A stretch of 64,000 nucleotides of DNA from assembly GCA_001464915.1 (NCBI GenBank), contig LNED01000028.1, positions 1 through 64,000 on the forward strand, given 5' to 3'. The DNA is from Sphingomonadales bacterium Ga0077531 (GTDB lineage Bacteria; Pseudomonadota; Alphaproteobacteria; Sphingomonadales; Sphingomonadaceae). Shown here piece after piece: positions 19,342-64,000 of the stretch. The number at the start of each line of letters is the position of its first letter. Within the stretch, counting starts at the first letter, position 1. The notes below the pieces were generated by a model that did no database searches, was not told where the DNA came from, and saw nothing but the letters and a program-made list of their open reading frames with translations. Made by a program: the position numbers and the translations under genes.

Positions 19342-19359
19342 TTTAGCCAGCACCCGCGC

Positions 19360-46454: not shown

Positions 46455-46467
46455 AATGATTATCATT
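46455..46467. promoter_or_regulatory. Fur-like iron box
   Basis: AATGATTATCATT is a perfect 6-1-6 inverted repeat matching the core of the Fur consensus. It lies 50 nt before the lipoprotein ATG and 182 nt before the peptidase start, so the lipoprotein is the likely iron-controlled gene. Confidence 0.75.
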
Positions 46468-46517
46468 TCCGCCATGAGGCACGCCAATCTGACTTATCAC
46501 ACAAAGGACAATCGCCG

Positions 46518-47540: not shown

Positions 47541-47588
47541 GGGTTTTGAGACGGGAATAGGCGCATAAGCGCCAGAAGCTCAAAGCCT
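47541..47588 (+). ncRNA. Candidate structured leader element upstream of tpsB
   Basis: GGGTTTTGAG (47541-47550) pairs with CTCAAAGCCT (47579-47588) over 10 bp counting two G-U pairs. Inside are an asymmetric internal loop and an apical hairpin GGCGC-ATAA-GCGCC (47560-47573). No known riboswitch consensus fits, so the call rests on structure alone. Confidence 0.45.
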
Positions 47589-47609
47589 TAGAATACAAGC
47601 GGATTGCAA

Positions 47610-47634
47610 CGGGCTGCGCATACTGCGGTGCCCG
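47610..47634 (+). promoter_or_regulatory. Second leader hairpin before tpsB
   Basis: CGGGC (47610-47614) pairs with GCCCG (47630-47634); after a 2x2 internal loop, CGCA pairs with TGCG around a TAC loop. No U-run follows directly, although GGGTAAAAACGTTTT comes soon after. It could be an attenuator or a translation control element. Confidence 0.4.
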
Positions 47635-47763
47635 GGTAAAAACGTTTTGGGGGGAAATTTGCGGCACACTCAGCTCAGCCAGCATTGCGTGCGGCGTGAA
47701 AGCGCGGCGGCGCGTGTTCGACCAGCCCTGTTGCTGCCAACGCAGTTTCTGTCACTCCGGGCC

Positions 47764-49548
47764 ATGGCGCGCGGCCTGGCATCGGCGTTGGCGCTTGGCA
47801 CATGTCTGGTCGGGCTTGATCAGGCCGCCCATGCGCAGCAAGCGCCGATCACTCCTCCGACCAGAAGCGACCTGATCCCGCCGGACACGCAGCGCCGTGA
47901 TGATCGCAGTGTCACGCTGACCGTGGATGGTGACTTTGAGCGCGCGCCATGCGCGCTCGACCGGCCGGAATTCGCTGACATCCGCTTCACCGTGGCCGGA
48001 GCGCAGTTCAACGGGCTCGACCGGGTGCCGGGCCTGTCGCTCGATGCGGCCTGGGCTGATTATCGCGGGCGCGAGCTGCCGGTGTCCGTGCTGTGCGACA
48101 TCCGCGCCGAAGCGAACGCGATCCTGCGGCGGCAGGGCTATCTCGCCACGGTCGAAATCCCCGAACAAAGCCTGTCCGACGGCATCCCCGATTTCACCGT
48201 GGTGTTCGGAAAGCTGACAGCAGTGCGGGTGCGCGGCGATGCAGGGCCTTCGGAAAAGATCGTTGCGGGCTATCTCGAAAAGCTGACGCAGGCGGACGTG
48301 TTCAACACCAACACCGCCGAACGCTATTTGCTGCTGGCTGACGATCTGCCGGGGATGGATGTGCGCCTGTCGCTGCGTCCGGCAGCGGGCGGCGCGCCGG
48401 GCGATCTGGTCGGCGAAGTGGCAGTGCTGCGGACGCGCGGGATGATCGATCTCAACGTGCAGAATTTCGGATCTGAGGCACTGGGCCGGTTCGGCGGGGT
48501 GCTGCGCGGTGAGATTTATGATCTGACCGGGCTGGGTGACCGCACGTCGGTGGCATTGTTCAGCACGCTTGAATTCCGTGAACAGCACACGCTGCAAATC
48601 GGCCATGATTTCCGGGTTGGGAGCGAAGGGCTGCGCTTGGGGGGGCAGTTCACTTACAGCACCGCCAATCCTTCGGCCGCGCTGCCCGGCTTCAATGTCG
48701 AGGCGGAAACGATCTTCGCCAGCATCTTTGCCAGCTACCCCTTGGTGCGCACCCGCCGCCACAGTGTGTTCGCCGATGCCGGGTTCGACTACGCCGATCA
48801 GGAAGTCGAGCTCAACAATTTCGGCCTGACCGAAGATCGGGTGCGGATGCTGTTCGCGCGGGTCGCGGGCGAATGGACCGATCAGCAATCGGTGCTGCGC
48901 GCCGGGGGCTATAGCCCGTTCGAGCCAAAGCTGCGGCTGCGGTATGGGGTTGAGGCGCGCCATGGACTAGACGTGTTCGATGGCAGCCCCGATTGCCGCG
49001 CCAACCTGCTCGCCTGTCTGGTCGGCGGCATGATCCCGCCCAGCCGGATCGAGGCTGATCCGACGCCGTTCCTCGTCCGGCTCAACGCCGATATCGAATA
49101 CCGGCCCACCCCGCTGCTGGCGTTCTCGCTTGAAACGCAGGCGCAGGTCACGGGCGATGCGTTGCCCGCGTTCGAGGAAATCGCCGCGGGCAGTTTCTCG
49201 GTCGGGCGCGGGTATGATCCGGGCGCGGTTCTGGGCGATAGCGGCATCCTGAGCGCGTTTGAACTGCGGTATGGCACGCTGGTGCCCGCAACCATCAGCG
49301 GGTTCGCTTTCCAGCCCTATGTCTTCACCGATGTCGCCTTTGTCTGGAACGAAGACCCCAGCCGCCAGCCCGGCAATCCCGACCGGTTGTGGTCGGCTGG
49401 CGGCGGTTTGCGCATGGCGTGGGGATCGGGCCTGCAAAGCGATGTGCTGATTGCCGTCCCGCTGGAACGGCCTGATCTGGCTGCGACCAAAGGCGATGTC
49501 CGCTTCATGTTTACCCTGACCGCCCGCCTGTTCCCGTGGAGATACTGA
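47764..49548 (+). CDS. TpsB-type outer-membrane transporter for the adjacent TpsA
   Basis: Two-partner secretion transporter (ShlB/HecB family). From the ATG at 47764 there is a signal peptide (ending QAAHAQQ), a Pro/Arg/Asp-rich linker, POTRA-like domains (DIRFTVAGAQFNGLDRVPG, then IPDFTVVFGKLTAVRVRGD) and a barrel with GSFSVGRGYDPGAVLG as the family loop signature, ending with a terminal aromatic residue (FPWRY). Upstream in-frame TTG/GTG codons could add up to 39 residues, giving an unusually long signal region. It precedes tpsA by 1 nt, as expected for a transporter-passenger pair. Confidence 0.9.
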   Translation: MARGLASALALGTCLVGLDQAAHAQQAPITPPTRSDLIPPDTQRRDDRSVTLTVDGDFERAPCALDRPEFADIRFTVAGAQFNGLDRVPGLSLDAAWADYRGRELPVSVLCDIRAEANAILRRQGYLATVEIPEQSLSDGIPDFTVVFGKLTAVRVRGDAGPSEKIVAGYLEKLTQADVFNTNTAERYLLLADDLPGMDVRLSLRPAAGGAPGDLVGEVAVLRTRGMIDLNVQNFGSEALGRFGGVLRGEIYDLTGLGDRTSVALFSTLEFREQHTLQIGHDFRVGSEGLRLGGQFTYSTANPSAALPGFNVEAETIFASIFASYPLVRTRRHSVFADAGFDYADQEVELNNFGLTEDRVRMLFARVAGEWTDQQSVLRAGGYSPFEPKLRLRYGVEARHGLDVFDGSPDCRANLLACLVGGMIPPSRIEADPTPFLVRLNADIEYRPTPLLAFSLETQAQVTGDALPAFEEIAAGSFSVGRGYDPGAVLGDSGILSAFELRYGTLVPATISGFAFQPYVFTDVAFVWNEDPSRQPGNPDRLWSAGGGLRMAWGSGLQSDVLIAVPLERPDLAATKGDVRFMFTLTARLFPWRY

Positions 49549-49549
49549 G

Positions 49550-52500
49550 ATGATCTGTTCGAACCGGAACCGTTCACGATTGCTGCTTGGCTGCGGCAGT
49601 GCCGCACTGGCTTTGGCGCTGACTTTCGCCCCGCAACGGGCCGCAGCGCAGGCGATCAATGCCGAAGGCAACGTGATCGACGGTGTGGCCTTTTTTGACA
49701 ATCCCGGCGCGGGCCAAACAACGATTGATGTCGTCACTCCGACCACGGTGATTGACTGGCAGCCGTTCGAAGATGTGAACGGTGATGCGCTGACGTTCCT
49801 GCCCGCTGGCAATACGGTGACATTCCAGTCTGGGCAGCTGGCGAATTTTGCAGTGCTCAATCGCATTCTGCCGTCCACCAACAACAACATCGCCGTGATC
49901 AACGGCAACGTGATTTCGCAGATTACGCAGGTGTCTGGTGCCCCGATGACTGGCGGAACTGTGGCGTTTTATTCGCCCACCGGCATCTTGATCGGCAGCA
50001 CGGCAACGTTTGATGTCGGCAGCCTGCTGCTGACCACGCTCGACACGACCCCGGAAAGTTTTGCGAACTTTTTCAATGGCGGCAACCTCAACCTTGCGGC
50101 TGCCCCTGGTTCGACCGCCCGGATTCAGATCGATCCCGGCGCGCAGATTTCCGCGCTGGCAGAAAATTCGTTCTTCGCAGTCGTCGCCGCCGATGTCGAA
50201 ATGCTCGGCACCGCGCGGATCAATGGCAGCCACGCCTATGTTGCGGGCGAGGTGGTCAACCTGTCGCTATCGAACGGGTTGTTCAGCATCTCGATCCCGG
50301 TAGGCACGGCAGCTTCGGGAGAGGTGGTAACGCTCAACGGTGATGTCGGCGGCCCTTCGAGCACCGGGGTGGGCGACAATCACATCATCTACGCCGTGGC
50401 GCGCGCCTCGGCTGATCCAATCAGCATGCTATTCAGCGGCAATCTCGGCTTTGATCCGGCGCAGAGCGCCGGCATCGTCAATGGCGAGATCATTCTGGCA
50501 GCCAATTACAATGTGTCCGGGCGGAACGTGGACAGCGGCTCGATCACGCAAGGGATCGATGCTGTGTTCCGCGGCACCAGCGCCACCAGCGATGTGCGCG
50601 CAGACATTACACTTGAAGATTTTACCGCCCGATCAAGCGTGCTGGCGATCGGCACCGGACAGACCATCGCGCGCGGTAATAGCAGCGTGGCGGGCAACCT
50701 GCTGCTGGTGGGCCGCGATGTGGCAGCCGTTGAAGCGACTGGCGACGATCTGTTTGAAGTCACCGGCGATGTCCTCATCGATGCGCGCGATTACGGGGTG
50801 GTCAGCTCTAGTCTGCAAACACTTGATGCAATCAACGCCACCGGCGGCACGGCACGAATCCTGTCAGAAGCTGGCGCAACCGTGCGCATCAACGGCAATG
50901 CGCTGGTCACCGCAGAGGCGTTTGGCGGTGCAGAGGATATCAGCGGCATTGCTGGCAGTTCGGAGGGCGGGACAGCTGAAATCGTTGCGGCTGGCGGCGA
51001 CGTAACGATCACCGGCCTTACTAATGTGCGGGCATCGGCATTCGGCACCAATCTCGATTTTATCCGCACCGGCGCGACTGCGCGTGGCGGCATGGCCCGT
51101 GTTACGGTCAGCGGCGGCGGCAGCGCGACGTTTGACCAAGATTTGCTGATAACGGCCATCGGTTCGGGTGCGGATAGCGATGTTTTCAGCCCATCGACCG
51201 GGTCGGATTCGTTTGGCGGCACTGCGCTGCTATCGATTACCGGCGCAGGCATGGTCGATATTGGTGGTAACGCTGTGCTGAACGCAAGCGCCTTTGCGCG
51301 CGGGGCTAACGCGGCAAGCGGTGGTGCACTGGCTGACGCGGGCGAAGCGGCGGTTTCGGTTGACGGATCGGGCACCATCACAATCGACGGCGATCTCGAT
51401 CTTGTTGCCACCGCCATCGCCGGTGACAATGGCGGCGGGCAGGGCGGGCAGGGCGGTCAGGCGCTGGGCGGCGCGGCGCGGGCGATCACAGTGAATGGCA
51501 ACGGCCAGATCACGGTTGTCGGAGATTTTTCGGCCTTGGCCGATGCGCGCGGCGGTAACGGCACCAGCGGCGGCGATGCTTTTGGCGGGGTTGCCGGGGC
51601 CAATGCGATCAATGGCACCATTGACTTGCAGCAACTTGCCACCGCCGATGCCTCTGCTTTCGGAGGCAGTGCTGCGTTCGGGTTTGGCGGTAATGGCGGG
51701 ATCGGGCGGGGCGGTAATGCCTTCTTCCAAGCCAACGGCACCGCGGCGCAGCAAGCCACCTTGATGATTGGCGGCGATGCCGAAGTGTTTGCCACCGGCA
51801 GCGGCGGTGACGGCGGCAGCAGCGATGGATCGGCGATTGCCGCCGGGCGCGGCGGCGATGGTTTTGGCGGCGATTTCGGCACTCCCAATCAGGCTGACCC
51901 CAATTTCACCAGCGGTGCCTTTTTGTTGGCGAGCGGTGACTACGGCACGATCAGCGTCGCCGGCACGGCGACCCTCGATGCCAGCGGCTTTGGCGGTTTT
52001 GGCGGCAGCGCGGCTGGGCCTTTGACCGGCGGGCGCGGCGGCGATGGCTTTGGCGGCTTGGCGCAGGCGGGCCTCGCCTTGCTCGGCGGGCCGGGAACAG
52101 TTGGCGGCGGTTCGGCCACGTTTGGCGATCTGTTTGTCGACGCCAATGGCCGCGGCGGTGATGGCGGGATTGACGGCCAGATTGATGCCGTCGTCGGCCT
52201 TGGCGGCAATGGCGTTGGCGGCGGCGCGCTCGTCACTGTGCGCGCGGGCGACGTTACGGCGGGTCTGGTGCAGTTGAGCGCGCTCGGCCTTGGCGGCGTG
52301 GGCAATGATGGCGGCATGGGCAGCGGCGGCACTGCCGGAGTATTGGGCGGCCAGAATGGCAGCTTCACCGCAACCGGGATCGATTTGTTCGCTGGCGGAA
52401 TTGGTGGATTTTCCGATGCCGGGCGCGGGGGCGATGGTTTGGGCGGAACCGCCGCGATTGAAGGCGACGGGATCACTGTCATCGTCAATGGCAATGTCAC

Positions 52501-55500
52501 AGCCGATGCCAGCGGGCTTGGCGGATCGCTGGAAGATGGGGCTGGCGGCAATGGCAATGGCGGTGAGGCCTATATCGGGATCATCACCAATACGCCGGGC
52601 ACGATCACGGTCACCGGCCATGCGCGCGTCATCGCCAATGGCCAGGGCGGCGATAGCCTGACGAATTTCGCTGCGGGCAATGGTCAAGGCGGAATGGCCT
52701 ATATCCAGTCGCAAGGCAGCAGCACCATTACGCTGGGATCAGCGCAGGCGATTGCAATCGGCCAAGGCGGTTCTGCGGCGCTTCACCAAGGTGGACAGGG
52801 CAATGGCGGCACCGCCGAATTGCGCAGCCTTGGTACTGGCAGCCGCCTCATCATTCAGCGCAACGTGCCGGCCGACCTTGCCTCGGCAACGGGCGACGGC
52901 GCACTGTTGAATGCCAGCGGCATCGGCGCTGCTACCAATGGCGGAAACGGCATTGGCGGCGGCGGGAGAGGTGGCCAGATCGGCATTCTGGCACAAGGTG
53001 GCGGCAGCATCGCCTTGCCTACCGATCCACTGGGCGACCCCAATAGCGTTGGCGCGATCCAGTTGATCGCGCGCGGGATTGGCGGCGGGTCTTCGGTTGA
53101 AGGCGGCACAGGCGGCTTTGGCCGTGCCGGGGGCGGCTTGATCGAGGCTGACGGCGGCACGATCATCATGGGCGACACGATTTTCACGGTGTTTGGTCAA
53201 GGCGGGTCTAGCCTCGTTTCAACCAGCAACATCACCGGTGGCAATGCCTTTGGCGGTCAGCGCCGGATCCGCGTGCTCAATGGCGGCGAAGCGACCTTGG
53301 CGTTGCTCGGCGGCACAACGGGCACGCGCGGCGGCGATGGATCGGGCACTGGCAATGGCGGCGATGTGTTTTCCGGCCGTACGGAGGTCGAACTCACCGG
53401 CGGCACGCTGAACATCATCGGCGTGCTCGACCTGAATGATCAGAACCGCGGCGGCGATGGCGCTAATGGCGGCAATGCGTTTGGCGGTGGCGAAGGCGGC
53501 GGGGTCAGCTTTGTTGCCACCGATTCGACCATCACTGTGACGCCTGATGCCAGCGGGTTGGCGGGGATTACCATGGGCGGTACATTCCGTGGCGGTGATG
53601 GAGTGGCGGCGGGCGGCAATGCATTCGCGCAGCCAGTCACGTTTACGCTGACCAATACCGATCTTCTGGGCGGCTATCTGCGGATCACTCCACTGGCACA
53701 GGGGGGCAATGTGTTCGGCGGCGCTGGCCAGGGCGGCAATGCAACCGGCAGCGGTGTTTTTGTCACCATCACGGATTCGACGGTCAATCTGGTCGACGAC
53801 AATCTGATCACAGCCAATGCCGAAGCCGGCAATGGCGGCATCGGCCCAGGTAGCATTGGCGGTTCTGCGATGAGCGGCGGGGCCACGCTTTCGCTCAACA
53901 ACAGTGCGGTCACGATTGCGCCGGGGACGACAGCGGATGCCCGATTGACGGTGCAATCCTTGGCCGTCGCCGGAAGCGGTATGCAGGTCGGCAACGCGAC
54001 GGCCAGCGTGGCCCGATTGGCAATCGACAATTCATCGCTCCAAACCGGTCAGCTGTTGGTTGAGGGTGCGTCCACAGCGTTTTCAAACATGTCCGGCGCG
54101 CGCGGCGGCAGGGCGATATCGAGCTTGGCCGAAGTAACGGTCGCAGGCGCATCGCAGCTGAATGTCACAGGTTTCCTAACTGTGGGCAGCAACGCCTTCA
54201 CCTCGGCCGGGGGAGTCGCTGAAGGCGGGTTGTCATCGTTCACCGTTGCAGTTGGCAGCCAGGCCGTGATCAATGCTGGCGAGTTGAGCCTGATTGCCGA
54301 TGGTTCGGGCAGCGACGATCCGCTTGGCAACTTGGCGGGCCAATTCGTGCTCGACGTGCTTGGCGGCAATATCAATGCGGGCAACCTGTTCGCCTCGGCG
54401 CGTGGGGGTTCGGTTTCCGACGTTTTTGGCCCGTCGCGGCTTGTCGCGCGCAGCGGCAATATCAATGTGGCCGGGAGCCTGTTCGCTGAGGTGCAGGGCG
54501 ACCTTTCGATCCAGACCGGACAGGGCGGGATCATCGGCGCGCTGCGATCGGCAGCGACAACCACCAATGTCCAGATCAGATCGGAAGGCGTGATAGAGAT
54601 TGCGGGCGACAACAACGCCGTGGCGGGCCTTGGCGGCGATGTGATCAATCTGGCTGCGCGTGAGATCGATATTACAGCTGGAGCGCGAATTGGGGCCAAC
54701 CGGGTGTTTATCACCTCGCTCAACCAAGCGGCGACCGCCATTCTTGGCGGCACCACCGAAGGCAGCGGCTTCTCCCTGACTTCCGATGAATTGAGCCGGA
54801 TCAGCGCGCGCGAGCTGGGTATCGCCGTGCCGAACCTGAACTTCAGCAATGATCCCAACCTGCCCGATCTGCTGGTGCGCGACCTGTCGCTGACGGGAAC
54901 CGGGAGCAATGGCTTTGCGCTGGTGCAGATCTTCGCGGGCAGCGATGCCGCCGATGGCATTGTCAGGTTCGAAGGCACGCTCACCTACGCCAATGCTGGC
55001 GCGGATGATCTGCTGGAAATCGACGCGGGACGGATCGAGATTGTCACGCCGGGCGGCATTCGAGTCACCGATGCCAATGGTGCGCCGGGCGGCAATCTGG
55101 CGCTCAACGCTGACAATATCTGGGTGGCGGATGCGGCGACAATCACGCAGTTGCAGGGCAACCGCAACTTCGCCGGGCGCGATGCACTACTGGCGGTGGC
55201 AGCAACCGGCAGCAACGATCCGCTTGGCAATGTCCGCGCGGGCGGGGTGACCGTCAACGTCCGGGAAAGCCTGCTCGTGCGCAACACCGGGACTGCCTTT
55301 GCGGGCGGGGGCATCCTGATCGGCGGAGGTATCTTGTCGATCGTTTCGTCTGGCGGCAGTCAGTCGGGATCAAGCCCGCAGCTTGACGTGTTCGCCTATG
55401 GCCGCCGCCAAACCGCGCCGGGCACCTTTGTCGTTGGCGAGGCGTTTTTTGACGAGGTGAACTTCAACCGCGTCAGCCCCGGCAGCAGCCTTTACCTTGA

Positions 55501-55807
55501 TGCCAGCGCCTTCAACGATTGCGTGATCAACACCGGCGTATGTCCGCAGGCGCCCGAACCGCCGGAGCCAGAGGTTGAAGCGCCGCCGCAGATCAACAAT
55601 CCGACGTTGTTCGATGGCCCGATTAACATCGGCGGCACCCCGCAGACGGGCGAAGGTGACGAGGAGGATCGCTTTGGCATCGACTTCCCCGAACAACCCG
55701 AAGCACCGCTCATCACCGAAGACCCGCTGCTTGATGATCCTGTCACAAGCGGGGGCGATGCATCGGTGTATGGCACGGGCGCGACGCCGCCTGTAGGAGG
55801 CAAGTGA
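49550..55807 (+). CDS. Giant Gly-rich TpsA exoprotein (haemagglutination-activity domain)
   Basis: Secreted 2085-aa passenger of two-partner secretion. A signal peptide (to about residue 34) precedes the TPS domain (about 55-290), with FYSPTGILIGSTATFDVGSL standing for the NPNGI-type motif. The long body consists of short beta-strand repeats broken by Gly-rich turns (GRGGDGFGG, GGNGGIGRGGNAFF), as expected for a right-handed beta-helix fibre. Near the end Cys1991 and Cys1998 (NDCVINTGVCPQ) are the only cysteines of the mature protein, followed by an acidic Pro-rich tail. It probably is a surface adhesin or matrix fibre anchored through its C-terminus. Confidence 0.93.
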   Translation: MICSNRNRSRLLLGCGSAALALALTFAPQRAAAQAINAEGNVIDGVAFFDNPGAGQTTIDVVTPTTVIDWQPFEDVNGDALTFLPAGNTVTFQSGQLANFAVLNRILPSTNNNIAVINGNVISQITQVSGAPMTGGTVAFYSPTGILIGSTATFDVGSLLLTTLDTTPESFANFFNGGNLNLAAAPGSTARIQIDPGAQISALAENSFFAVVAADVEMLGTARINGSHAYVAGEVVNLSLSNGLFSISIPVGTAASGEVVTLNGDVGGPSSTGVGDNHIIYAVARASADPISMLFSGNLGFDPAQSAGIVNGEIILAANYNVSGRNVDSGSITQGIDAVFRGTSATSDVRADITLEDFTARSSVLAIGTGQTIARGNSSVAGNLLLVGRDVAAVEATGDDLFEVTGDVLIDARDYGVVSSSLQTLDAINATGGTARILSEAGATVRINGNALVTAEAFGGAEDISGIAGSSEGGTAEIVAAGGDVTITGLTNVRASAFGTNLDFIRTGATARGGMARVTVSGGGSATFDQDLLITAIGSGADSDVFSPSTGSDSFGGTALLSITGAGMVDIGGNAVLNASAFARGANAASGGALADAGEAAVSVDGSGTITIDGDLDLVATAIAGDNGGGQGGQGGQALGGAARAITVNGNGQITVVGDFSALADARGGNGTSGGDAFGGVAGANAINGTIDLQQLATADASAFGGSAAFGFGGNGGIGRGGNAFFQANGTAAQQATLMIGGDAEVFATGSGGDGGSSDGSAIAAGRGGDGFGGDFGTPNQADPNFTSGAFLLASGDYGTISVAGTATLDASGFGGFGGSAAGPLTGGRGGDGFGGLAQAGLALLGGPGTVGGGSATFGDLFVDANGRGGDGGIDGQIDAVVGLGGNGVGGGALVTVRAGDVTAGLVQLSALGLGGVGNDGGMGSGGTAGVLGGQNGSFTATGIDLFAGGIGGFSDAGRGGDGLGGTAAIEGDGITVIVNGNVTADASGLGGSLEDGAGGNGNGGEAYIGIITNTPGTITVTGHARVIANGQGGDSLTNFAAGNGQGGMAYIQSQGSSTITLGSAQAIAIGQGGSAALHQGGQGNGGTAELRSLGTGSRLIIQRNVPADLASATGDGALLNASGIGAATNGGNGIGGGGRGGQIGILAQGGGSIALPTDPLGDPNSVGAIQLIARGIGGGSSVEGGTGGFGRAGGGLIEADGGTIIMGDTIFTVFGQGGSSLVSTSNITGGNAFGGQRRIRVLNGGEATLALLGGTTGTRGGDGSGTGNGGDVFSGRTEVELTGGTLNIIGVLDLNDQNRGGDGANGGNAFGGGEGGGVSFVATDSTITVTPDASGLAGITMGGTFRGGDGVAAGGNAFAQPVTFTLTNTDLLGGYLRITPLAQGGNVFGGAGQGGNATGSGVFVTITDSTVNLVDDNLITANAEAGNGGIGPGSIGGSAMSGGATLSLNNSAVTIAPGTTADARLTVQSLAVAGSGMQVGNATASVARLAIDNSSLQTGQLLVEGASTAFSNMSGARGGRAISSLAEVTVAGASQLNVTGFLTVGSNAFTSAGGVAEGGLSSFTVAVGSQAVINAGELSLIADGSGSDDPLGNLAGQFVLDVLGGNINAGNLFASARGGSVSDVFGPSRLVARSGNINVAGSLFAEVQGDLSIQTGQGGIIGALRSAATTTNVQIRSEGVIEIAGDNNAVAGLGGDVINLAAREIDITAGARIGANRVFITSLNQAATAILGGTTEGSGFSLTSDELSRISARELGIAVPNLNFSNDPNLPDLLVRDLSLTGTGSNGFALVQIFAGSDAADGIVRFEGTLTYANAGADDLLEIDAGRIEIVTPGGIRVTDANGAPGGNLALNADNIWVADAATITQLQGNRNFAGRDALLAVAATGSNDPLGNVRAGGVTVNVRESLLVRNTGTAFAGGGILIGGGILSIVSSGGSQSGSSPQLDVFAYGRRQTAPGTFVVGEAFFDEVNFNRVSPGSSLYLDASAFNDCVINTGVCPQAPEPPEPEVEAPPQINNPTLFDGPINIGGTPQTGEGDEEDRFGIDFPEQPEAPLITEDPLLDDPVTSGGDASVYGTGATPPVGGK

Positions 55808-55808
55808 G

Positions 55809-58800
55809 ATGACGCTGCGCCGCAACGCCGCCCGCCTGATTGTGTCCTCCGCCACCGCGCTGGGGCTGGCGGCGATGCTTATCGCCGTTCCCGGCGCAGC
55901 GCGGACAAAGGCCGTTACCAGCCTTAGCCTGCGCGACACGTTTCCCATCGGATCGAACGGGTTGTGCGAAGCCCAAATCCTCGTGCCGGAACCGGGGGCA
56001 GGGCTGTTCGACCGGCGTTATTCGGTGATCTGCCGCGATGCCGCCGCGCCAGTTGGCACGCTATGGGTGGTCAAGGCCAAGCCCGAAGATGCCGCGCCTT
56101 CGCGCTTCGCCGGGGCGGATGCGACCTGCACGCCGGGCGCTGCGACTGCCAGTGAATTGCCCGGGCTCCCCGCGGCGCAGCGCTTGTCATGTTCGCGCGG
56201 GGATTCAATCCTGCGCACCGATCTGCTGATCGGCAACCGCGGCGGGCGCACCTATGCAGCTAGCGGCCTGTCTGCCTATGGCAAAGCGCTGGAGCTTGGC
56301 ATTGCCTCGCTCGCCAGTGACGAAGTCGTGCCCGGCAACGTCGAAATCCCGCTCACCAGCACCACCGATGCGCTCGCCTTTGCGCGCCAACAGGCTGAAG
56401 CGATCGCCGCCGATCAGGCGCTGGTCGAAGCGTACCGCCGCAGCAATGCAGGCAATTTCGCTGAAGCGGCGGAGTTTTTTGCGGTATCCTCCGGCGCGTT
56501 GTTGGGAACTGGCGCTGCCGAAGCGCGGCTGAACGAGGCGCTCCAGCAGTCGAACCTCGGAAACTTCAACGAAGCGCGCCGGCTGTTGGTTGCCAGCCGC
56601 GCGGCCAGCGCGACCAGTCCGCTGCTCGCCCGATTGCAGCGCAATTTTGAGGGTATGGACGCGCTCAACCGGCGCAAGGCGGGTGATGCTCTGGCGATCC
56701 TCGATACCCCGCTGGCAATCGAATTTGCTGATGGAGATGCGATCCGCACGCTAACCATCGGCCCCGCGCTCGCCGGGCAATTGGCGAGCGAGAGCGGACG
56801 GATCACGAGCGAATATTCGCTGAGCTTGACCCCGCTGGAACGCGCGCAGTTGCTTGATGGTCAGCACGCCTATCTCAAGGCAACGGCCCTGCGTCTGCTT
56901 GGCCGGGGCGATGAAGGTGCGAGCCTGCTGCGCTCCGCCGAAGCTGCCTTCGCAGATGTGCGCGGCGGGCGTGTGGTCTCGGTCGCATGGCTGCGTGCGC
57001 AGGTGCTGAGCGAGCTGGCGCAGGTGGCCGAGCGCGGCGGGCGCGTGGCTGAGGCAGAAGGTCTGCACAGTCAGGGCATTGCGCTGCTGGCCTCGTCCTA
57101 TCCGGGATCACCTGCATTCGACAGCGCGCGGGCGCAGCTCGCCGGGCTGTATGCCCGCAACGGGCGGCAGGGCGAGGCGTTGACGATCTATCGCGCAATC
57201 GTGAGTGAGGCCAAGGGCCGCGCGCTGCCATCGCTGCGCGGCTTGATGACGCCCTATTTCGCGCTGTTGATCGAAGGCGATGCGGCTGGTGGCGCTACAG
57301 CCGCGACTGATGTGTTTGCGGCGAGCCAATTGCTCAGTCGCCCCGGACTTGCGCAGACGCAAGCAGCGCTCGCCCGCGAATTGTCGGGCGGCAGTGACGA
57401 GGCGTCGCAGCTGTTCCGCACCGCCACCAATCTGGGGCGTTCGATTGAGCAATTGCGGGTGGCGCTGCTTGAACTTGAAGCCGCGCCCGAAGCCAGCAGT
57501 GGCCAAACCGCGCAGATCGCCGAGCGGCGCGGGCGGCTCGACCAATTGCAGCAGCAACAGGCCGAAGTGCTACAAAAGCTGGCGACCTATCCGCGCTATC
57601 GGGCGGTCGCAGGCGAAGCGATTGCGCTGCCGGAATTGCAGGCGATCCTTGGCGAGGGTGAGGCTTATGTGAAGCTCGTCACGCTCGACCGGGATGCCTA
57701 CGTGGTTTACGCGACCCGCACCGAGGCGATGACATGGCGCGCCGATGCAACGCCCGCGCAGCTCGACAGTCTGGTGGGCCAGATCCGCGAAAGCATTGCG
57801 GTGGTCGAAGGCGGGCAGGTGCTGACCTATCCGTTCGATATCGCCCGCGCGCGTGAACTATATGTCCGCCTGTTCGCACCAGTGGCCGACCGATTGCCCA
57901 AGGCGCAGCACATTGTGTTTGAACCCGATGGCGCGCTGCTCAAGTTGCCGATTAACTTGCTGGTGACCGACGATGCCAGCGTCTCCGCCTACAACGCTCG
58001 GATGGCGGGGCGTGATGCGGATGAGTATGATTTTCGCGGCACAGCGTGGCTGGGGCGCAGTGCGCAGATCAGCACATCGGTCGCCGCATCGGCGTTCCGC
58101 GATGTGCGCGCCGCGCGACCTTCGGACGGGACACGCGCCTATCTCGGCCTCGGTGAAAATGCGCCGGTCGGCAATGGTTCGGCGGGTGCATCGCGCACGC
58201 GGGCTGCGCTGGAAAGCGGGGAGCGGTGCCAGTGGTCGCCCAATATCTGGGCCAATCCGATCAAGGCGGATGAACTGCGGTCAGCCGCGTCGCGGTTTGG
58301 CGGCGGCGGGCGGGTGCTGACGGGCGCGGACTTCACCGACAGCGCGATCATGGGGCTGAACGATCTGAGTGAATACCGCATCCTGCACTTCGCCACCCAC
58401 GGCCTCGTCACCGCGCCGCAGCCCGAATGTCCGCCGCGCCCGGCGCTGCTGACCAGTTTCGATGTGGGTGAGGGGTCTGACGGCCTGCTCAGCTTTGCCG
58501 AGATTTTCGGGCTCCGGATCGACGCCGATCTGGTGATCTTGTCGGCCTGCGATACGGCCGGCAGCGCCACTGTGGGCGCAACGCGCGAAGCCGGTATCAC
58601 TGGCGGCGGAGAGTTCGCGCTGGACGGATTGGTGCGTGCGTTCGTTGGTGCAGGCGGGCGCACCGTGCTGGCGAGCCATTGGCCGGTGCCGGATGATTTC
58701 GACGCGACCGGGCGGCTGATCGGCGGACTGTTTGCTGCCAATGGCCAGGCCACGGCAGGCGCGCTGCAATCGTCGCAACGGTTGCTGATGGACGATGCCG

Positions 58801-58871
58801 AGACTTCGCATCCGTTCTACTGGTCAGCCTTTGCGGTGGTGGGTGATGGCGCCGCGCGCCTGACCCGCTGA
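55809..58871 (+). CDS. Exported TPR-like/CHAT (caspase-like) protein
   Basis: 1020-aa protein with a signal peptide (to about residue 31-35), a middle region of TPR-like helical repeats (about 205-560), a coiled stretch (QIAERRGRLDQLQQQQAEVL) and a C-terminal CHAT domain. The catalytic dyad is intact: His864 in ILHFATHGLV and Cys914 in VILSACDTAG. CHAT domains are separase/caspase-like proteases; most studied ones are cytoplasmic, so an exported one is notable. It starts 1 nt after tpsA and could process or control the exoprotein in the periplasm or at the surface. Confidence 0.92.
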   Translation: MTLRRNAARLIVSSATALGLAAMLIAVPGAARTKAVTSLSLRDTFPIGSNGLCEAQILVPEPGAGLFDRRYSVICRDAAAPVGTLWVVKAKPEDAAPSRFAGADATCTPGAATASELPGLPAAQRLSCSRGDSILRTDLLIGNRGGRTYAASGLSAYGKALELGIASLASDEVVPGNVEIPLTSTTDALAFARQQAEAIAADQALVEAYRRSNAGNFAEAAEFFAVSSGALLGTGAAEARLNEALQQSNLGNFNEARRLLVASRAASATSPLLARLQRNFEGMDALNRRKAGDALAILDTPLAIEFADGDAIRTLTIGPALAGQLASESGRITSEYSLSLTPLERAQLLDGQHAYLKATALRLLGRGDEGASLLRSAEAAFADVRGGRVVSVAWLRAQVLSELAQVAERGGRVAEAEGLHSQGIALLASSYPGSPAFDSARAQLAGLYARNGRQGEALTIYRAIVSEAKGRALPSLRGLMTPYFALLIEGDAAGGATAATDVFAASQLLSRPGLAQTQAALARELSGGSDEASQLFRTATNLGRSIEQLRVALLELEAAPEASSGQTAQIAERRGRLDQLQQQQAEVLQKLATYPRYRAVAGEAIALPELQAILGEGEAYVKLVTLDRDAYVVYATRTEAMTWRADATPAQLDSLVGQIRESIAVVEGGQVLTYPFDIARARELYVRLFAPVADRLPKAQHIVFEPDGALLKLPINLLVTDDASVSAYNARMAGRDADEYDFRGTAWLGRSAQISTSVAASAFRDVRAARPSDGTRAYLGLGENAPVGNGSAGASRTRAALESGERCQWSPNIWANPIKADELRSAASRFGGGGRVLTGADFTDSAIMGLNDLSEYRILHFATHGLVTAPQPECPPRPALLTSFDVGEGSDGLLSFAEIFGLRIDADLVILSACDTAGSATVGATREAGITGGGEFALDGLVRAFVGAGGRTVLASHWPVPDDFDATGRLIGGLFAANGQATAGALQSSQRLLMDDAETSHPFYWSAFAVVGDGAARLTR

Positions 58872-58889
58872 CGGGAAGGCGCGCGCGTA

Positions 58890-60947
58890 ATGAATGCAAC
58901 GCCAGACCGCACGCCATCGCGGCTCGGCTGGATCGCGCGCGGCTGGCGCAATGTGCGCGAGGCGGGCGGAGTGCAGCTCGCCGCGACGCTGGTGGTGCTG
59001 TGCGCGGCGCTGTTCATCGCGCGGTTCAGCTGGGTGCTACCCGACGGCGAAGTGCCCACACCGCTGACCGGGGAGGCCGAGCGGGCGCTGTATGACCTGC
59101 GCGCCTATTACGCCGCCGATCTGGTCGAGCAGGACGACCGGGTGGTGCTGGTGGTTTATACCGATCAGACGCTGATCGCCGCGCGCAAACGCTCCCCGCT
59201 CGACCGGGGCCTACTCGCACGCACGCTGACCACGCTGGACGGGATGGGCGCCAAAGCGATCGGGATCGATATCCTGTTCGATCAGCCGCAGGATGAAGAC
59301 CCCGAACTGATCGCAGCCCTGCGCGGGATGAAGACCCCGGTGGCGGTCGCTTACGCCAATGTTGCCACCAATCAGGACGATGTGGTCTACGAACAGCAGC
59401 AATATCTTGAGGAGTTTCAGGCGCAACTGGCAGGCAGCAAAGCCCGGCCTGCCAGTATCCGGCTCGACAACACCTTTGGCGCGACGCGGGTGTGGCCAAG
59501 TATCGTGGAAGGCCTGCCGCCGCTGTTGGGCCGTGCGATGCTGGATGATGCAGGCGTGGCGGCGCCTCGCTTTAACGGATACGAAGGCGCGCTCGATTAC
59601 CGGCGCCCCAAATTTGTCGACGCGCCGCTGTTCGCCTCGCTCCAGATTGATCTGCTGGCCGACTCCGATCCCGAAGTGCTGCCGTTTCTAGCCGAGCAGA
59701 TTGCGGGCAAATATGTGCTGATCGGCGGCGATATTGTCGATTATGACCGGGTGGAAACGACCTTCACCTCGATCAATGGCGAAGTGCCCCCAGGTCTGGC
59801 TGTCCATGCCGAGATTATCGCGCAGATGCTCGACAACCGCGTGCTTGAGCCTGTCCCGCAATGGGCGCTGTGGGCGATGGCGGTGCTGGTTGTGCTGAGC
59901 GCCGCGCTGACCGCGCTGCTCGAATGGCAGGCACGGCGGTTAGCGCCGCTGGTGGTGCTGCTGTTCGTGGGCTTTGTCGGTATCCCATTGCTGCTGCAAT
60001 TGCGGAACGTCGATACCTATGGTCTGCCCGCAGTCGGCTGGCTAGTTGGCTGGATCATCGCCTTCGCCGCCGTGACTGCCGCCGCGCGCGCATCGGGCGC
60101 GGTGCAGCGCAATTTTGCCGCCAGCGCGCTGGGCAAATACATCCCGCGCGATATTGCCCAGGCGATTATCGACAAGCCCGAATTGCTTTCCCTCGGGGGG
60201 GAAAAACGCGCGATCTTTGTGCTGTTCAGCGATCTGGAGGGCTTCACCAAGATGAGCCACGCGATTGCGCCGGAAATGGTGGCAAAGCTGCTCAACCGCT
60301 ATCTCGATATGCTGAGCCAAGTGGTGCTCGATCATGGCGGCGTGATCGACAAGTTTGTCGGCGATGCGGTGGTGGCGTTTTGGGGCGCGCCGATTTCGCG
60401 GCCTGATGATGGGATGCGCGCTGCCAAGGCTGGCTATGCGATCTGGCAGGCCGGCGAGGCTTTCCGGCGCGAAGTGGCGGCGATGGATCCGAACCTGCCC
60501 CCCATCGGCAAGACCCGCGTCGGCCTGCATTACGGCGAGGCGGTGATCGGCAATTTCGGCGGTGCGACTCGGATCCAATACACCGCGCTCGGCGATTCGA
60601 TGAACACCGCCGCGCGGTTGGAGGCTGCGAACAAAGCGCTCGATTCCGCCGTGATGGCGAGCCGCGAATTTGCCGAAGCCTCTGGGCTCGATTGGTGGCG
60701 GGCGATGGGCCGGGTCCAGCTGCGCGGGCGAGCGAGGCCGGTCGATCTGTTTGAACCCGCGCCCGAATTTCCGTTAGACGACCGCAGGCAACTGGCCGAA
60801 GCTTGCGCGCTTGCCACAGATGACCGCGAAAGCGCGCGCATGATGGTTGAGGTAGTCGCGGCTCGCCACCCAAATGATTCAGCGCTAGGCAATCTTGCCC
60901 GGCGCATGCAGGCTACGGACGAGGGAGGAACCTATGTTCTCGGATAG
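58890..60947 (+). CDS. CHASE2-class III adenylate cyclase
   Basis: Membrane receptor-cyclase of 685 aa. One N-terminal helix leads to a periplasmic CHASE2 domain (about residues 55-320; DRVVLVVYTDQTL, GAKAIGIDILFDQP), three membrane helices (about 325-400), then the cyclase domain. Canonical catalytic residues are present: metal-binding Asp448 (FSDLEGF) and Asp492 (KFVGDAVVAF), adenine-specifying Lys488 and Asp569 (TALGDSMNTAARL), and transition-state Asn572 and Arg576. It should form cAMP in response to a periplasmic cue. It follows the CHAT gene by 18 nt and overlaps the next gene by 14 nt. Confidence 0.93.
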   Translation: MNATPDRTPSRLGWIARGWRNVREAGGVQLAATLVVLCAALFIARFSWVLPDGEVPTPLTGEAERALYDLRAYYAADLVEQDDRVVLVVYTDQTLIAARKRSPLDRGLLARTLTTLDGMGAKAIGIDILFDQPQDEDPELIAALRGMKTPVAVAYANVATNQDDVVYEQQQYLEEFQAQLAGSKARPASIRLDNTFGATRVWPSIVEGLPPLLGRAMLDDAGVAAPRFNGYEGALDYRRPKFVDAPLFASLQIDLLADSDPEVLPFLAEQIAGKYVLIGGDIVDYDRVETTFTSINGEVPPGLAVHAEIIAQMLDNRVLEPVPQWALWAMAVLVVLSAALTALLEWQARRLAPLVVLLFVGFVGIPLLLQLRNVDTYGLPAVGWLVGWIIAFAAVTAAARASGAVQRNFAASALGKYIPRDIAQAIIDKPELLSLGGEKRAIFVLFSDLEGFTKMSHAIAPEMVAKLLNRYLDMLSQVVLDHGGVIDKFVGDAVVAFWGAPISRPDDGMRAAKAGYAIWQAGEAFRREVAAMDPNLPPIGKTRVGLHYGEAVIGNFGGATRIQYTALGDSMNTAARLEAANKALDSAVMASREFAEASGLDWWRAMGRVQLRGRARPVDLFEPAPEFPLDDRRQLAEACALATDDRESARMMVEVVAARHPNDSALGNLARRMQATDEGGTYVLG

Positions 60948-61680
60948 ATTGAAAGCACGCTTTGCCGGATTGGCATTGGCAGGCGCAGCGCTGGCTTTGC
61001 CGGTGGCAGGCATCGCGGGGGTTGTGGTCAAATCGACCGGGCCATCAGCGTCGACCTACAAGGTTGGCACCAAGCTGGAAGATGCTGCCACAATCACGTT
61101 GAAGGCAGGCGACGTGGTGACCGTGCTCACCGCCGAAGGCACCCGCGTGATCAAGGGCGCGGGCACGTTCCGCGTCGGTGATCGGCCGCAGGTTGCCTCT
61201 GACCGTTTCGCCTCTTTGACCCGCAGACGCGCCGCCACCCGCGTGCGCACCGGGGCCGTACGTGCGCCCGAAGATGATGCCGTGACTAACCCCAGCCTGT
61301 GGTATGTCGATGTCACGCGATCCGGCACGATCTGCCTCTATGATCTTGCCACTGTGCGGTTGTGGCGTCCGGGCACGGCAGGGACTTCGACCTATCGCAT
61401 CAGCGGCGATGGCAACGACGCGCAGGCCGAAGTCACCTTTGACGACACGGTCACCGTCGCGGCGCTCGACCCTGCGCGCCTGCCAATTGCCGAGGGAGCA
61501 CCCTACATGATCACCGCGCCCGATGGATCGACATCGGCGCAGATCAACTTCGTGCTGCTGGGCGAAGATTACGAAGCGCCTGACGCATTGGCGGAAGCGC
61601 TGATCGCCAAGGGGTGCAGCGTTCAGCTCGAATCGCTCGCCACCAGCCTTGAAGCGTCTGCCGAGGCGGTCGGCGGCTAA
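60934..61680 (+). CDS. Small exported FecR-like protein
   Basis: 248-aa exported protein with an N-terminal signal or anchor (FAGLALAGAALALPVAGIAG). The first mature part (YKVGTKLEDAATITLKAGDV, TRVIKGAGTFRVGD) looks like the beta-barrel of a short FecR or SH3-like domain; the rest is beta-rich with one Cys pair region (GTICLYD, KGCSVQLES). The ATG at 60934, with GGGAGGA upstream, overlaps the cyclase gene by 14 nt. The tight coupling suggests that it binds the CHASE2 domain in the periplasm. The family call is tentative. Confidence 0.7.
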   Translation: MFSDRLKARFAGLALAGAALALPVAGIAGVVVKSTGPSASTYKVGTKLEDAATITLKAGDVVTVLTAEGTRVIKGAGTFRVGDRPQVASDRFASLTRRRAATRVRTGAVRAPEDDAVTNPSLWYVDVTRSGTICLYDLATVRLWRPGTAGTSTYRISGDGNDAQAEVTFDDTVTVAALDPARLPIAEGAPYMITAPDGSTSAQINFVLLGEDYEAPDALAEALIAKGCSVQLESLATSLEASAEAVGG

Positions 61681-61876
61681 TCCAAGCGGGGGGTTAGGGC
61701 GGATAAGCGGTTGCATCCACGACCCAAGCTTGGGACAAGGAGCGCGGGCAGCCTAGGGGGAGTCGGCAGACGGGACGACTTTTCCTGACGCGGCTCTACA
61801 AGCGCCGATATTGCAGGCTTGCTAGCCTGTATACGCTCGGCGCTTGCTGGCGGGACAGCATCTCGGGGGGGATGGC
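61681..61876 (+). promoter_or_regulatory. Intergenic region with structured leader before the cytochrome gene
   Basis: This 196-nt gap carries the nested hairpin at 61801-61844 and a GGGGGGG ribosome-binding stretch before the ATG at 61877. The break in gene overlap suggests a separate promoter for the cytochrome and lipoprotein genes, or an attenuator inside one operon. Confidence 0.5.
61801..61844 (+). promoter_or_regulatory. Nested hairpin 33 nt before the cytochrome gene
   Basis: Outer arms AGCGCCGA (61801-61808) and TCGGCGCT (61837-61844) are perfectly complementary; inside them CAGGCT-TGCT-AGCCTG (61814-61829) forms a second perfect 6-bp stem. No U-run follows, so a leader or processing element is more likely than a terminator. 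Confidence 0.5.
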
Positions 61877-63262
61877 ATGAGGGGAGTTCTGGCGAATTGG
61901 ATCGCGGGCCTGATGCGCAGGCCGCAACTGATCCGCGTCTTCGCCGTGCTCGGTCTCGCGGCGCTCTACCCGGCATCGGGCGCGATCGGTAATCCGACCT
62001 TCGAAGGCGTGGCAAGCTGCGCCGGATCGACCTGCCACGGCCGCGCCGAAGGCAATGGCGCAGTGGTGCGGCAGGATGAAATCGCGACCTGGCAGGAACC
62101 GTCCTCGCCCAGCGGTGCGCATAGCCGCGCCTATGCCGTGCTCGGCGGACGGCGCGGGCAGCAGATCGCGGCGAGCCTTGGCCTTGGCAATGCGCAGGCG
62201 GCTCCGGCGTGTCTGGGTTGCCATTCGACCTATGCGCCCGCTGGACAACGCGGGGCAAAATTCGCGCTTGGCGATGGGGTCGGCTGCGAAAGCTGCCACG
62301 GCGCATCAGGTGGCAGCTGGTTGGCGGAACACTATGCTCTGCCCGCCACCCATGCCTCGAACATCGCAGCGGGGCTGACCGCGCTCGACAATGCGAAAAC
62401 GCGGGCGAATGTATGCCTCGATTGCCATTACGGATCGTCCAAGCCGGGGCAGTTCCTTACCCATTCGATGATGGCGGCGGGCCACCCGCGCATCTCGTTC
62501 GAGCTCGACCTGTTCAGCGCGCTCCAGCAACACCACAATATCGACGGCGATTACACCGCGCGAAAGGCTGCGCCCAACGCGGTGCGGTTCTGGGCGGTGG
62601 GTCAGGCCGAGGCGGTGCGCCGCGCCACCACGCTGTTCGCGCAGCCAAAGTTCGCGATGGAAGGCGCGTTTCCGCAGCTCACCTTCTACGACTGCCATTC
62701 GTGCCACCGGACGATCACCGATGGCCCGCAGCGCAAGCTGACGTTCGAGACCAATCCCTCCCGCCCCATACCGTTCGGCAACCCACCCTTCAATGATGAG
62801 AACATCATCATGCTCTCTGCCGTCGCAGGGGCCTTGGTGCCGGGTGAGGCGGCGGCGTTTCAGGCCGCCAGCCGCGATTTCCACCGGGCAATGGGGCAAG
62901 GGCCGGGTGAGGCTCGCGCGGCCGCGCAGGCGCTGGCGGGCCGCGCAGGCGCACTTGCCGATGCGCTGTCTGGCCGCGCCTATGCCAATGCCGATGCCTT
63001 TCGGGTGATCGCGATCATCGCGGGCGAGGCGACCACGCCGCGCTTTACCGACTATGCCGGATCGGTGCAGGCGGTGATGGCGATCGACACGCTGCTGAAC
63101 GCGCTGGTCAGCGAAGGGCGCGTGACCACAGGCGCCGCTGCGGGCATCCGCGCCGATATTGCGCGCGCCTACAAAGCGGTGGACGAGCCCAATGCTTACC
63201 GCCCCGCCGATTTCCGCATTGCGCTGAAATCGGCAGCGGGCGCGATTGGCAGGCTGCAATAG
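61877..63262 (+). CDS. Multiheme cytochrome c
   Basis: Exported 461-aa cytochrome, resembling the cytochrome c554 type. An N-terminal hydrophobic segment (VFAVLGLAALYPASGAIG) acts as signal or anchor. Heme sites in order: one CX4CH (CAGSTCHG) and four CXXCH (CLGCHS, CESCHG, CLDCHY, CHSCHR), so four or five covalent hemes. Extra histidines (QQHHN, GHPRISFELD) may be distal ligands. The C-terminal 150 residues are helical without heme motifs. The ATG at 61877 follows a G-rich ribosome-binding site. It is followed 2 nt later by a HbpS-like lipoprotein gene. Confidence 0.88.
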   Translation: MRGVLANWIAGLMRRPQLIRVFAVLGLAALYPASGAIGNPTFEGVASCAGSTCHGRAEGNGAVVRQDEIATWQEPSSPSGAHSRAYAVLGGRRGQQIAASLGLGNAQAAPACLGCHSTYAPAGQRGAKFALGDGVGCESCHGASGGSWLAEHYALPATHASNIAAGLTALDNAKTRANVCLDCHYGSSKPGQFLTHSMMAAGHPRISFELDLFSALQQHHNIDGDYTARKAAPNAVRFWAVGQAEAVRRATTLFAQPKFAMEGAFPQLTFYDCHSCHRTITDGPQRKLTFETNPSRPIPFGNPPFNDENIIMLSAVAGALVPGEAAAFQAASRDFHRAMGQGPGEARAAAQALAGRAGALADALSGRAYANADAFRVIAIIAGEATTPRFTDYAGSVQAVMAIDTLLNALVSEGRVTTGAAAGIRADIARAYKAVDEPNAYRPADFRIALKSAAGAIGRLQ

Positions 63263-63264
63263 CA

Positions 63265-64000
63265 ATGCGCAGGGGGGCGACATTCTGGCTTGCGGTTAGC
63301 GCGCTGGCGCTCGCGTCCTGCGGGGGTAGCGGCCCGCCTAGCAATGGCGGGGCCACCGGCGGCGGGCCAACGCCCACGCCCACACCGCCGCCCGTGGGTC
63401 AGGTGTTCAACGTGCCTGCTGCCGAAAGCCTCAGCACAGGCGAAGTCGGTTCGATCATCGCTCAGGCAGCGGCGGAAGCCCGCGCGCGCAATGTTGCCGC
63501 GACCATTGCGGTGACCGACCGGGTCGGCAATGTCCTTGCCGTGTTTGCCATGCCGGGCGCAGGCGCGACGGCGGTCATCCCCTCGGCCCCGGACGGCACC
63601 ATCCGCGATGCGCAAGGCCTCACCGTTCCCAGCGCCGCTGCCGCCATCGCCAAGGCGATCACCGGCGCGTATCTTTCAAGCGGCGGGAACGCCTTTTCCA
63701 GCCGCACGGCGAGCTTCATCGTGCAGGAACATTTCCCGCCTGCACCGACCACTGTGGGGCTGGAAAGCGGGCCATTGTTCGGGGTCCAGTTCAGCCAACT
63801 GCCGTGCAGCGATCTCGCCGCGCGGGCGAGCGACGGGTTGATCGGGCCCAAGCGCTCGCCGCTCGGCCTGTCGGCGGATGCCGGGGGCTTCCCGCTGTAT
63901 CAGAACGGCGTGGTCGTCGGCGGGGTGGGGGTGATTGCCGACGGGGTCTACGGCTTCGATCCCAACGTGCTCGACCGTGATGCCGATGTGGACGAGGCGA
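63265..64000 (+). CDS. HbpS/GlcG-like lipoprotein (3' truncated by window end)
   Basis: The first 245 codons of a lipoprotein are visible; the frame is open at the window end. The lipobox is LASC (about residue 19), followed by a Gly/Thr/Pro-rich tether. The body matches the HbpS/GlcG (DUF336) fold: EVGSIIAQAAAEARARNVAA, then TIAVTDRVGNVLAVFAMPGA, AAAIAKAITGAYLSSGGNAF and an extended C-terminal part (GVVVGGVGVIADGVYG). HbpS-type proteins bind heme or act as extracellular redox sensors. Neighbouring a multiheme cytochrome, it may handle heme or sense redox state. Confidence 0.8.
   Translation, partial: MRRGATFWLAVSALALASCGGSGPPSNGGATGGGPTPTPTPPPVGQVFNVPAAESLSTGEVGSIIAQAAAEARARNVAATIAVTDRVGNVLAVFAMPGAGATAVIPSAPDGTIRDAQGLTVPSAAAAIAKAITGAYLSSGGNAFSSRTASFIVQEHFPPAPTTVGLESGPLFGVQFSQLPCSDLAARASDGLIGPKRSPLGLSADAGGFPLYQNGVVVGGVGVIADGVYGFDPNVLDRDADVDEA

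Follow-up and report, generated by a model that had tools for sequence, protein, structure and literature searches.

What joins a two-partner secretion (TPS) exoprotein, an exported-type CHAT protease and a CHASE2 cyclase in one run of genes? The question is raised by a locus in a 64,000-nucleotide stretch of Sphingomonadales bacterium Ga0077531 (contig LNED01000028.1, positions 1 to 64,000; the whole stretch is termed the window). Here, the genes for a transporter (TpsB), a giant exoprotein (TpsA), a TPR-CHAT protein, a CHASE2 cyclase and a small partner protein follow each other closely. Comparison of the sequences revealed that this set is conserved, that TpsA ends in a short conserved tail which is rare in the searched genomes without this CHAT protein, and that a second, small protein carries the same tail. 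The rarity of the tail in genomes without CHAT points to a processing step that is devoted to the tail and linked to a cyclic AMP (cAMP) sensor. The set may thus be a dedicated system for exoprotein processing and sensing, in which CHAT would read or cut the TpsA tail and the cyclase with its partner would report as cAMP. We give this reading a probability of roughly 55%.

Organisation of the locus

The core features in the window are as follows:

47764..49548, + strand: TpsB, transporter of ShlB/FhaC type with ShlB and POTRA_2 (Pfam); start by eye
49550..55807, + strand: TpsA, Gly/Ala-rich exoprotein of 2085 amino acids with a divergent N-terminal TPS-like domain; signal peptide by eye
55733..55771, + strand: C-terminal tail motif of TpsA, DDPVTSGGDASVY, residues 2062-2074 of 2085
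55809..58871, + strand: TPR-CHAT protein (Pfam CHAT, alignment, AlphaFold/Foldseek), CHAT domain at 57846-58847; signal peptide by eye
58890..60947, + strand: CHASE2 class III nucleotide cyclase (Pfam, PDB cyclase matches, residues, hydropathy)
60934..61680, + strand: small partner protein from ATG 60934, with an invariant Cys pair; signal peptide by eye

TpsB, TpsA and CHAT are referred to as module M1, the CHASE2 cyclase and its partner as module M2. The open reading frames (ORFs) are separated by 1 nucleotide between TpsB and TpsA, 1 between TpsA and CHAT and 18 between CHAT and cyclase, and cyclase and partner overlap by 14; gene order and spacings in the initial annotation were exact on these coordinates. 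Signal peptides were called by eye throughout. The TpsB frame is open from a TTG at 47647, and the ATG at 47764, ahead of the signal peptide, was preferred by eye. A scan for promoters and terminators gave no excess over shuffled sequence.

A conserved tail at the C-terminus of TpsA

The tail motif D-[DE]-P-[VI]-[TSA]-[GS]-x-G-[ND]-x-x-L-[WY] was present, whole or as a variant, in all 59 CHAT-linked TpsA proteins compared. These comprise 25 tails from a set of 147 genomes drawn from the order (order set; thresholds E<1e-100 for CHAT and E<1e-150 for the cyclase ortholog) and 34 from loci of named relatives, of which at least L145 repeats an order-set genome; the tails of L187 and L197 were left out because the wrong ORF had been taken upstream of CHAT. 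A regular expression matched within the last 60-70 amino acids of 53 tails. Four more showed variants by eye (G110, L136, L174 and, in part, L180), and in L164 and L207 the motif was located further in, ahead of a low-complexity extension. The tail mostly sits on an acidic or proline-rich linker, and the motif is often acidic and mostly ends in Trp or Tyr.

The strict form was found in 24 of the 25 order-set tails, in none of 11 TpsA tails from loci without CHAT and in 31 of 50,000 shuffled tails. All 11 controls were complete TpsA proteins; L122 was left out as CHAT-linked, and 8 of the other 19 control loci were dropped because they contained no complete ORF of at least 1000 amino acids after TpsB. 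A tail profile of 26 columns was built from 22 of these tails and searched against six-frame translations of the 147 genomes. With a threshold of E≤1e-3, it matched 23 of the 24 genomes with CHAT and none of the 123 others; at E≤0.01, these numbers rose to 24 of 24 and 1 of 123 (G061, in a frame of 47 amino acids).

At the level of the class, the profile gave three matches in 289 genomes at E≤1e-3 (G000, G012 and, with 8.5e-4, G175). Seven of 14 class-level tails contained a strict G-N core (e.g. ..SGNEGLWGVGLP, ..WGNEALWQ and ..SGNEALWDAG..), and three more, ten in all, a loose core such as ..NTGKDALW... As background, the two cores matched 37 and 158, respectively, of 3275 mechanical ORFs; there is overlap within this set, which also includes TpsA genes. 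As far as can be judged from these sequences, the conserved tail of TpsA is new here; a literature search returned nothing on TpsA tails.

A second protein with the same tail

One extra match of the profile, in genome G122, falls in a small ORF; its product has a signal peptide as judged by eye, a stretch rich in proline and the tail ..TIDDPVIGFGNEALW... The small protein was present in the same neighbourhood in three of the ten genomes of this genus (G122, G435 and G440):

L210:8517-9251: small tail protein
L245 and L246, near the middle, reverse strand: small tail protein

By eye, its neighbours are cytochrome-oxidase assembly-like genes and a threonine-synthase-like gene. All three genomes encode CHAT at E<1e-200, and within the 13-18 kb around the small gene none of the three has a match to TPS, cyclase or partner. 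Eight of the ten genomes of the genus have CHAT at this threshold and G436 has a partial CHAT match; G432, the only genome of the genus without a CHAT match, has no tail match either. The conserved C-terminal motif is therefore found on more than one kind of exported-type protein (export judged by eye), as would be expected of a sortase-like C-terminal signal system. With its occurrence on two kinds of exported protein, the tail behaves like a recognition signal, and the small protein may be a second substrate of CHAT.

Co-occurrence of the gene set

CHAT was detected in 24 of the 147 order-set genomes at 25 loci, and TpsB and TpsA adjoin it in 25 of 25. The gene orders of M1 were TpsB-TpsA-CHAT, CHAT-TpsB-TpsA and CHAT-cyclase-partner-TpsB-TpsA. 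Genomes G025, G059 and G133 encode CHAT proteins of about 28-31% identity, again accompanied by a giant ORF and a match to TpsB. The cyclase ortholog was present in 25 genomes, i.e. the same 24 and G120, and 16 of the 25 cyclases (including that of G120) are located outside the fetched CHAT locus. Fisher's test for the co-occurrence of CHAT and cyclase in the 147 genomes gave a value near 1e-26, which is not corrected for relatedness. The partner was found in 27 genomes, namely the 25 with the cyclase ortholog as well as G059 and G133, and a cyclase was present in all 27; in G059 and G133, the distant CHAT, partner and cyclase occur together. Fifty-one genomes had a TpsB match. The 24 among them without a TPS-linked CHAT all lacked the cyclase ortholog, and two, G019 and G105, had a distant CHASE2-cyclase match. 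In the genera g1, g5, g6 and g15, some genomes contain CHAT and cyclase and the rest neither; genus g12 likewise has both or neither, with the exception of G120.

Named relatives were compared as the best 80 of 565, mostly from Sphingomonadales. Of these 80 loci, 69 had TpsB and three more a TpsA-like ORF; in the other eight, the contig ends within 1.3 kb upstream of CHAT. The closest relatives among them, with CHAT proteins 74-81% identical, belong to the Porphyrobacter/Erythrobacter group, and the locus in the window is a conserved system of these relatives. From 34 further CHAT places in the class, 18, mostly the best-scoring, were fetched. TpsB was found at 11 (at one of them on the other strand), a giant ORF that leaves the fetched edge and ends at CHAT at five, and neither at two, of which L257 has an ORF of 516 amino acids cut by the contig end. 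Cyclase and partner were present at eight of the 18.

The pairing of a TPS exoprotein with a signal-peptide CHAT protein, tied to a CHASE2 cyclase, had been proposed from the window alone and is supported by this co-occurrence. The initial annotation had also made its case dependent on a conserved gene order in relatives; here, the content proved to be conserved but the order permuted.

Three observations on single loci may be added. The cyclase-partner pair of G120 (L106:8201-11000) is possibly the remnant of a lost system. On a Tolypothrix plasmid, L265:6295-8754 encodes a single chain that combines CHASE2 with a CHAT match below the cut-off, and its gene is clustered with CHAT, caspase and DUF1822 genes. 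L197 is a CHAT-TPS locus from the metagenome-assembled genome Biocath_Alpha_32, which is of interest given the multiheme module described below.

Properties of the encoded proteins

TpsB matched ShlB with 45.3 bits (E 1e-11, cut-off 22.7) and POTRA_2 with 24.6 bits (E 2.3e-5, cut-off 24) in Pfam and is a two-partner secretion transporter of ShlB/FhaC type with a POTRA domain. The secretion domain of TpsA is divergent: the window protein had no match to the Pfam TPS domain and reached 17.6 bits with TIGR01901, below the cut-off of 29.1, and two of five CHAT-linked relatives reached 30.6 and 25.9 bits with Pfam TPS, both below the cut-off of 33.5. CHAT-linked TpsA proteins range from 1838 to 7554 amino acids, and distant pairs can be aligned in their N-terminal parts only. 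With the systems FHA/FhaC and ShlA/ShlB, the locus has in common a POTRA/ShlB-type TpsB that adjoins a giant TpsA; it differs from them in the sub-cutoff TPS domain, the CHAT gene in the operon and the conserved C-terminal tail. FHA is processed by other proteases.

CHAT proteins are widespread in bacteria, and to our knowledge few of their natural substrates have been identified. The window protein matched Pfam CHAT with 160.6 bits (E 7.2e-47, cut-off 24). His864 and Cys914, which had been named as catalytic residues, are present and were unchanged in 22 of 22 aligned relatives, so that the protein is a predicted cysteine protease with an intact His/Cys dyad. Three of its six further cysteines were kept in 22 of 22 relatives and three in 21 of 22, the sole gap being a position outside the alignment of one shorter locus match. 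This conservation fits three disulfides in an exported enzyme or an oxidising compartment. An apparent fusion of CHAT to something new in one relative was traced to a stretch of N in its record.

The TPR region of the CHAT protein resembles the TPR of kinesin light chain, both by profile (E 3.3e-6) and by fold. Kinesin light chain TPR binds peptides with Trp or Tyr and acidic residues. PorU of the type IX secretion system and GPI8, both of clan CD, act on C-terminal signals; here, the likeness would lie in the proposed function, in which an enzyme of caspase-like fold would act on a signal at the C-terminus. The AlphaFold model of the CHAT protein had a predicted local distance difference test (pLDDT) value of 76. 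In Foldseek it matched the DdvA anti-sigma factor, Craspase TPR-CHAT and separase, with 8d9g, 9hn0 and 8rot among the entries; normalised to the query, the TM-scores were 0.22-0.32. TPR and a CHAT domain with His/Cys are common to Craspase Csx29, separase and also DdvA, whereas the present protein is distinguished from these proteins by its signal peptide, disulfide-compatible cysteines and TPS linkage, and the TM-scores are low. CHAT genes have also been found near ECF54 sigma factors (PMC8999054).

The cyclase contains CHASE2 (Pfam, E 5.5e-26) and Guanylate_cyc (E 2.2e-12) and had sequence matches to cyclases in the PDB. D448, K488, D492, D569, N572 and R576, which we take to be the metal and adenine residues of class III cyclases, are all in place as annotated before. 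By its domains and residues, the protein is a predicted CHASE2 class III adenylate cyclase. Hydrophobic segments at about 24-52 and 318-400 lie on either side of CHASE2.

The small partner had no match in Pfam or NCBIfam. It had previously been labelled FecR-like, a label that we do not retain, as neither the window protein alone nor the 19 aligned members matched Pfam FecR: PF04773 was absent among the families matched by these members at E≤1, and the only PF04773 match of the own genome is another gene (18046-18330 in the window). In Campylobacterota, genes for CHASE2 adenylate cyclases form clusters with those for a phosphodiesterase, a protein with a FecR domain and a TPR protein (PMC9239204), and in Burkholderia a biofilm operon encodes a CHASE2 kinase as well as a LysM/FecR protein (PMC5192318). 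The likeness to these clusters lies in a CHASE2 sensor beside a small extracytoplasmic partner; in contrast to them, the partner described here is without Pfam FecR and is linked to TPS and CHAT. Sinorhizobium cyclases are treated in PMC5498481.

The initial annotation knew of no described system of this composition. This agrees with the open-access literature: searched with exact terms, it never joined the CHAT domain with two-partner secretion or hemagglutinin, or CHASE2 with two-partner secretion. The pairing of a CHASE2 sensor with a FecR-domain partner is, however, already in print (PMC9239204, PMC5192318).

Proposed mechanism and alternatives

In the system proposed here, TpsB would export the giant TpsA. 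The TPR-CHAT protein, which we infer to be periplasmic, would recognise the TpsA tail, probably docked on the TPR region, and would probably cut at or near it, so that the exoprotein is released, matured or anchored, by analogy with clan CD enzymes elsewhere. The CHASE2 cyclase and its partner would monitor either this processing or the condition of the envelope and would signal inward as cAMP. The signal may be assembly state or redox, as put forward in the initial annotation. The short conserved tail thereby offers a concrete candidate site for CHAT. If true, two-partner secretion would here be equipped with an enzyme of its own for C-terminal processing, and CHASE2 domains, the signals of which PMC5192318 calls unknown, would gain a candidate input.

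A more specific version, which we hold tentatively, is that CHAT forms a C-terminal sorting system for two-partner-secreted proteins with the G-[ND]-x-x-L-[WY] tail as sorting signal. The tail would then be common to TpsA and small exported proteins, CHAT would cut, perhaps after Asn or Asp, or transfer the protein to an anchor, and the cyclase would report the flow of substrate.

Several results weigh against a dedicated processing system. Across genomes, the tie between tail and CHAT is strong, but the TpsA and CHAT genes lie side by side, and joint inheritance of tail and CHAT is thus partly expected. The control TpsA proteins are less closely related, which confounds loss of the tail with divergence. 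A looser regular expression matched one of the 11 control tails, and the strict form occurred elsewhere in the protein in one of the 11. As the profile was built from 22 of the same tails, it finds these by construction, and the independent part of the result is its rarity in other sequences; with the threshold relaxed to E≤0.1, 12 of the 123 other genomes were matched as well. The distant systems with CHAT and TPS in G025, G059 and G133 escaped the profile; there, TpsA ends by eye in ..NPLVGRGNEGLIL.. (G025) and ..SLAGNPAGM (G059). Four of the 14 class-level tails (L256, L257, L259 and L260) have neither core. In the genus with the small tail protein, G434 and G437 contain CHAT but no tail match, in fragmented assemblies. 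G025 has CHAT and TPS without orthologs of cyclase or partner, and G120 has cyclase and partner without matches to CHAT or TpsB. Finally, none of the 11 remote CHAT loci fetched (L062-L072) matched the TpsB or TpsA of the window, so that the link to TPS is specific to this part of the CHAT family. The CHAT fragments L057 and L061 were likewise without a TPS match. For three CHAT loci on cyanobacterial plasmids, the annotation table, which is incomplete, lists no TPS gene, and on a Pseudosulfitobacter plasmid none is annotated at the CHAT locus. The initial annotation had asked whether CHAT occurs equally often without TPS genes: within this subfamily, no CHAT without TPS was seen where the flanks are visible, but all 11 remote loci fetched were without.

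The best of the alternatives, although in our view an unlikely one, takes the tail as an activating ligand. TpsA stalled in the periplasm would expose its tail, the TPR region of CHAT would bind it, and the protease would act on another protein, e.g. the partner of the cyclase, so that the set would be a sensor of envelope stress or secretion status with cAMP output. The similarity to kinesin light chain and the often acidic tail, which mostly ends in Trp or Tyr, would suit such binding, Craspase TPR-CHAT is reported to be an RNA-activated protease, and cyclase and partner accompany CHAT also in genomes where they are not linked to it. For a stall sensor, however, the tail of the small exported-type protein, with no match to TPS, cyclase or partner in the 13-18 kb fetched around its gene, would be odd.

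It is considerably less probable that the tail is a stop or anchor signal holding TpsA in TpsB and that CHAT is a general protease in the operon by chance. The adjacency of the TPS and CHAT genes would be in line with it, and HMW1 is C-terminally tethered in its TpsB. Yet the tail is found on a protein without a TpsB match nearby, its strict form is missing from the TpsA tails of all 11 controls without CHAT, and the distributions of CHAT, cyclase and partner over the genomes follow one another. That independent genes travel together on genomic islands or chromids without shared function would agree with their patchy distribution, the variable gene order and the set on a 952 kb Sphingobium plasmid record, but it is very improbable because cyclase and CHAT are kept together though unlinked (16 of 25 cyclases, one of which, in G120, is without CHAT), their joint presence or absence changes within several genera, and linkage recurs elsewhere in the class.

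An adjoining multiheme module

Downstream of the partner, two further genes lie in the window:

61844..63262, + strand: cytochrome c554-like protein (Pfam Cytochrome_C554) with 4 CXXCH and 1 CX4CH
63265..64000, + strand: HbpS-like lipoprotein with a lipobox (by eye), truncated where the window ends; full length 649 amino acids

Together with a putative barrel and a 10-heme protein they form module M3, which runs past the window on the contig to about 71173 with the remainder of the HbpS-like protein, a protein of 613 and one of 1373 amino acids. The two genes follow the first five as had been noted, but they belong to a separate, co-occurring module that continues beyond the window. The Pfam matches were 3.3e-12 for Cytochrome_C554 and 1e-06 for the HbpS-like protein. 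The protein of 613 amino acids is barrel-like by eye and had no Pfam match; its AlphaFold model (pLDDT 36) was too poor to use. The protein of 1373 amino acids contains 10 CXXCH motifs and had no match in a PDB sequence search. It was found in 25 of the 147 genomes, including 21 of the 24 with CHAT; the three CHAT genomes without it are of one genus, and G019, G059, G105 and G133 have it without this CHAT. With two multiheme proteins and a putative barrel, M3 may resemble porin-cytochrome conduits of the Mtr type, from which it differs in that its barrel has no Pfam match and an unusable model. A literature search returned nothing on Porphyrobacter multiheme cytochromes. M3 may have a role in the proposed system.

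Where the cyclase pair is located away from CHAT, it heads a run of cyclase, partner, cytochrome, HbpS, barrel and multiheme protein at six of the 16 loci (L094-L099). On the Sphingobium plasmid record, CHAT, cyclase, partner, TpsB, TpsA, cytochrome, HbpS and barrel stand in one run (L208:15004-33066, confirmed by tblastn). The arrangements of M1, M2 and M3 across loci therefore show the same content recurring in different orders. The plasmid run comprises M1, M2 and at least part of M3; its genes other than CHAT are annotated as hypothetical, and its TpsA is annotated as two overlapping coding sequences.

Other genes in the window

Upstream of TpsB, at 44134-47387, an S46 peptidase (- strand) and a Gly/Glu-rich lipoprotein-like protein (+ strand) are encoded, the latter being found upstream in G143 as well. 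A second set at 16087-21678 consists of a TpsB-like ShlB protein (- strand), a FecR-domain protein (17872-19341, + strand) and a CHASE2-GGDEF-EAL protein (19360-21678, + strand). In this set, CHASE2, FecR and a TPS-type transporter are together again, here with cyclic di-GMP domains.

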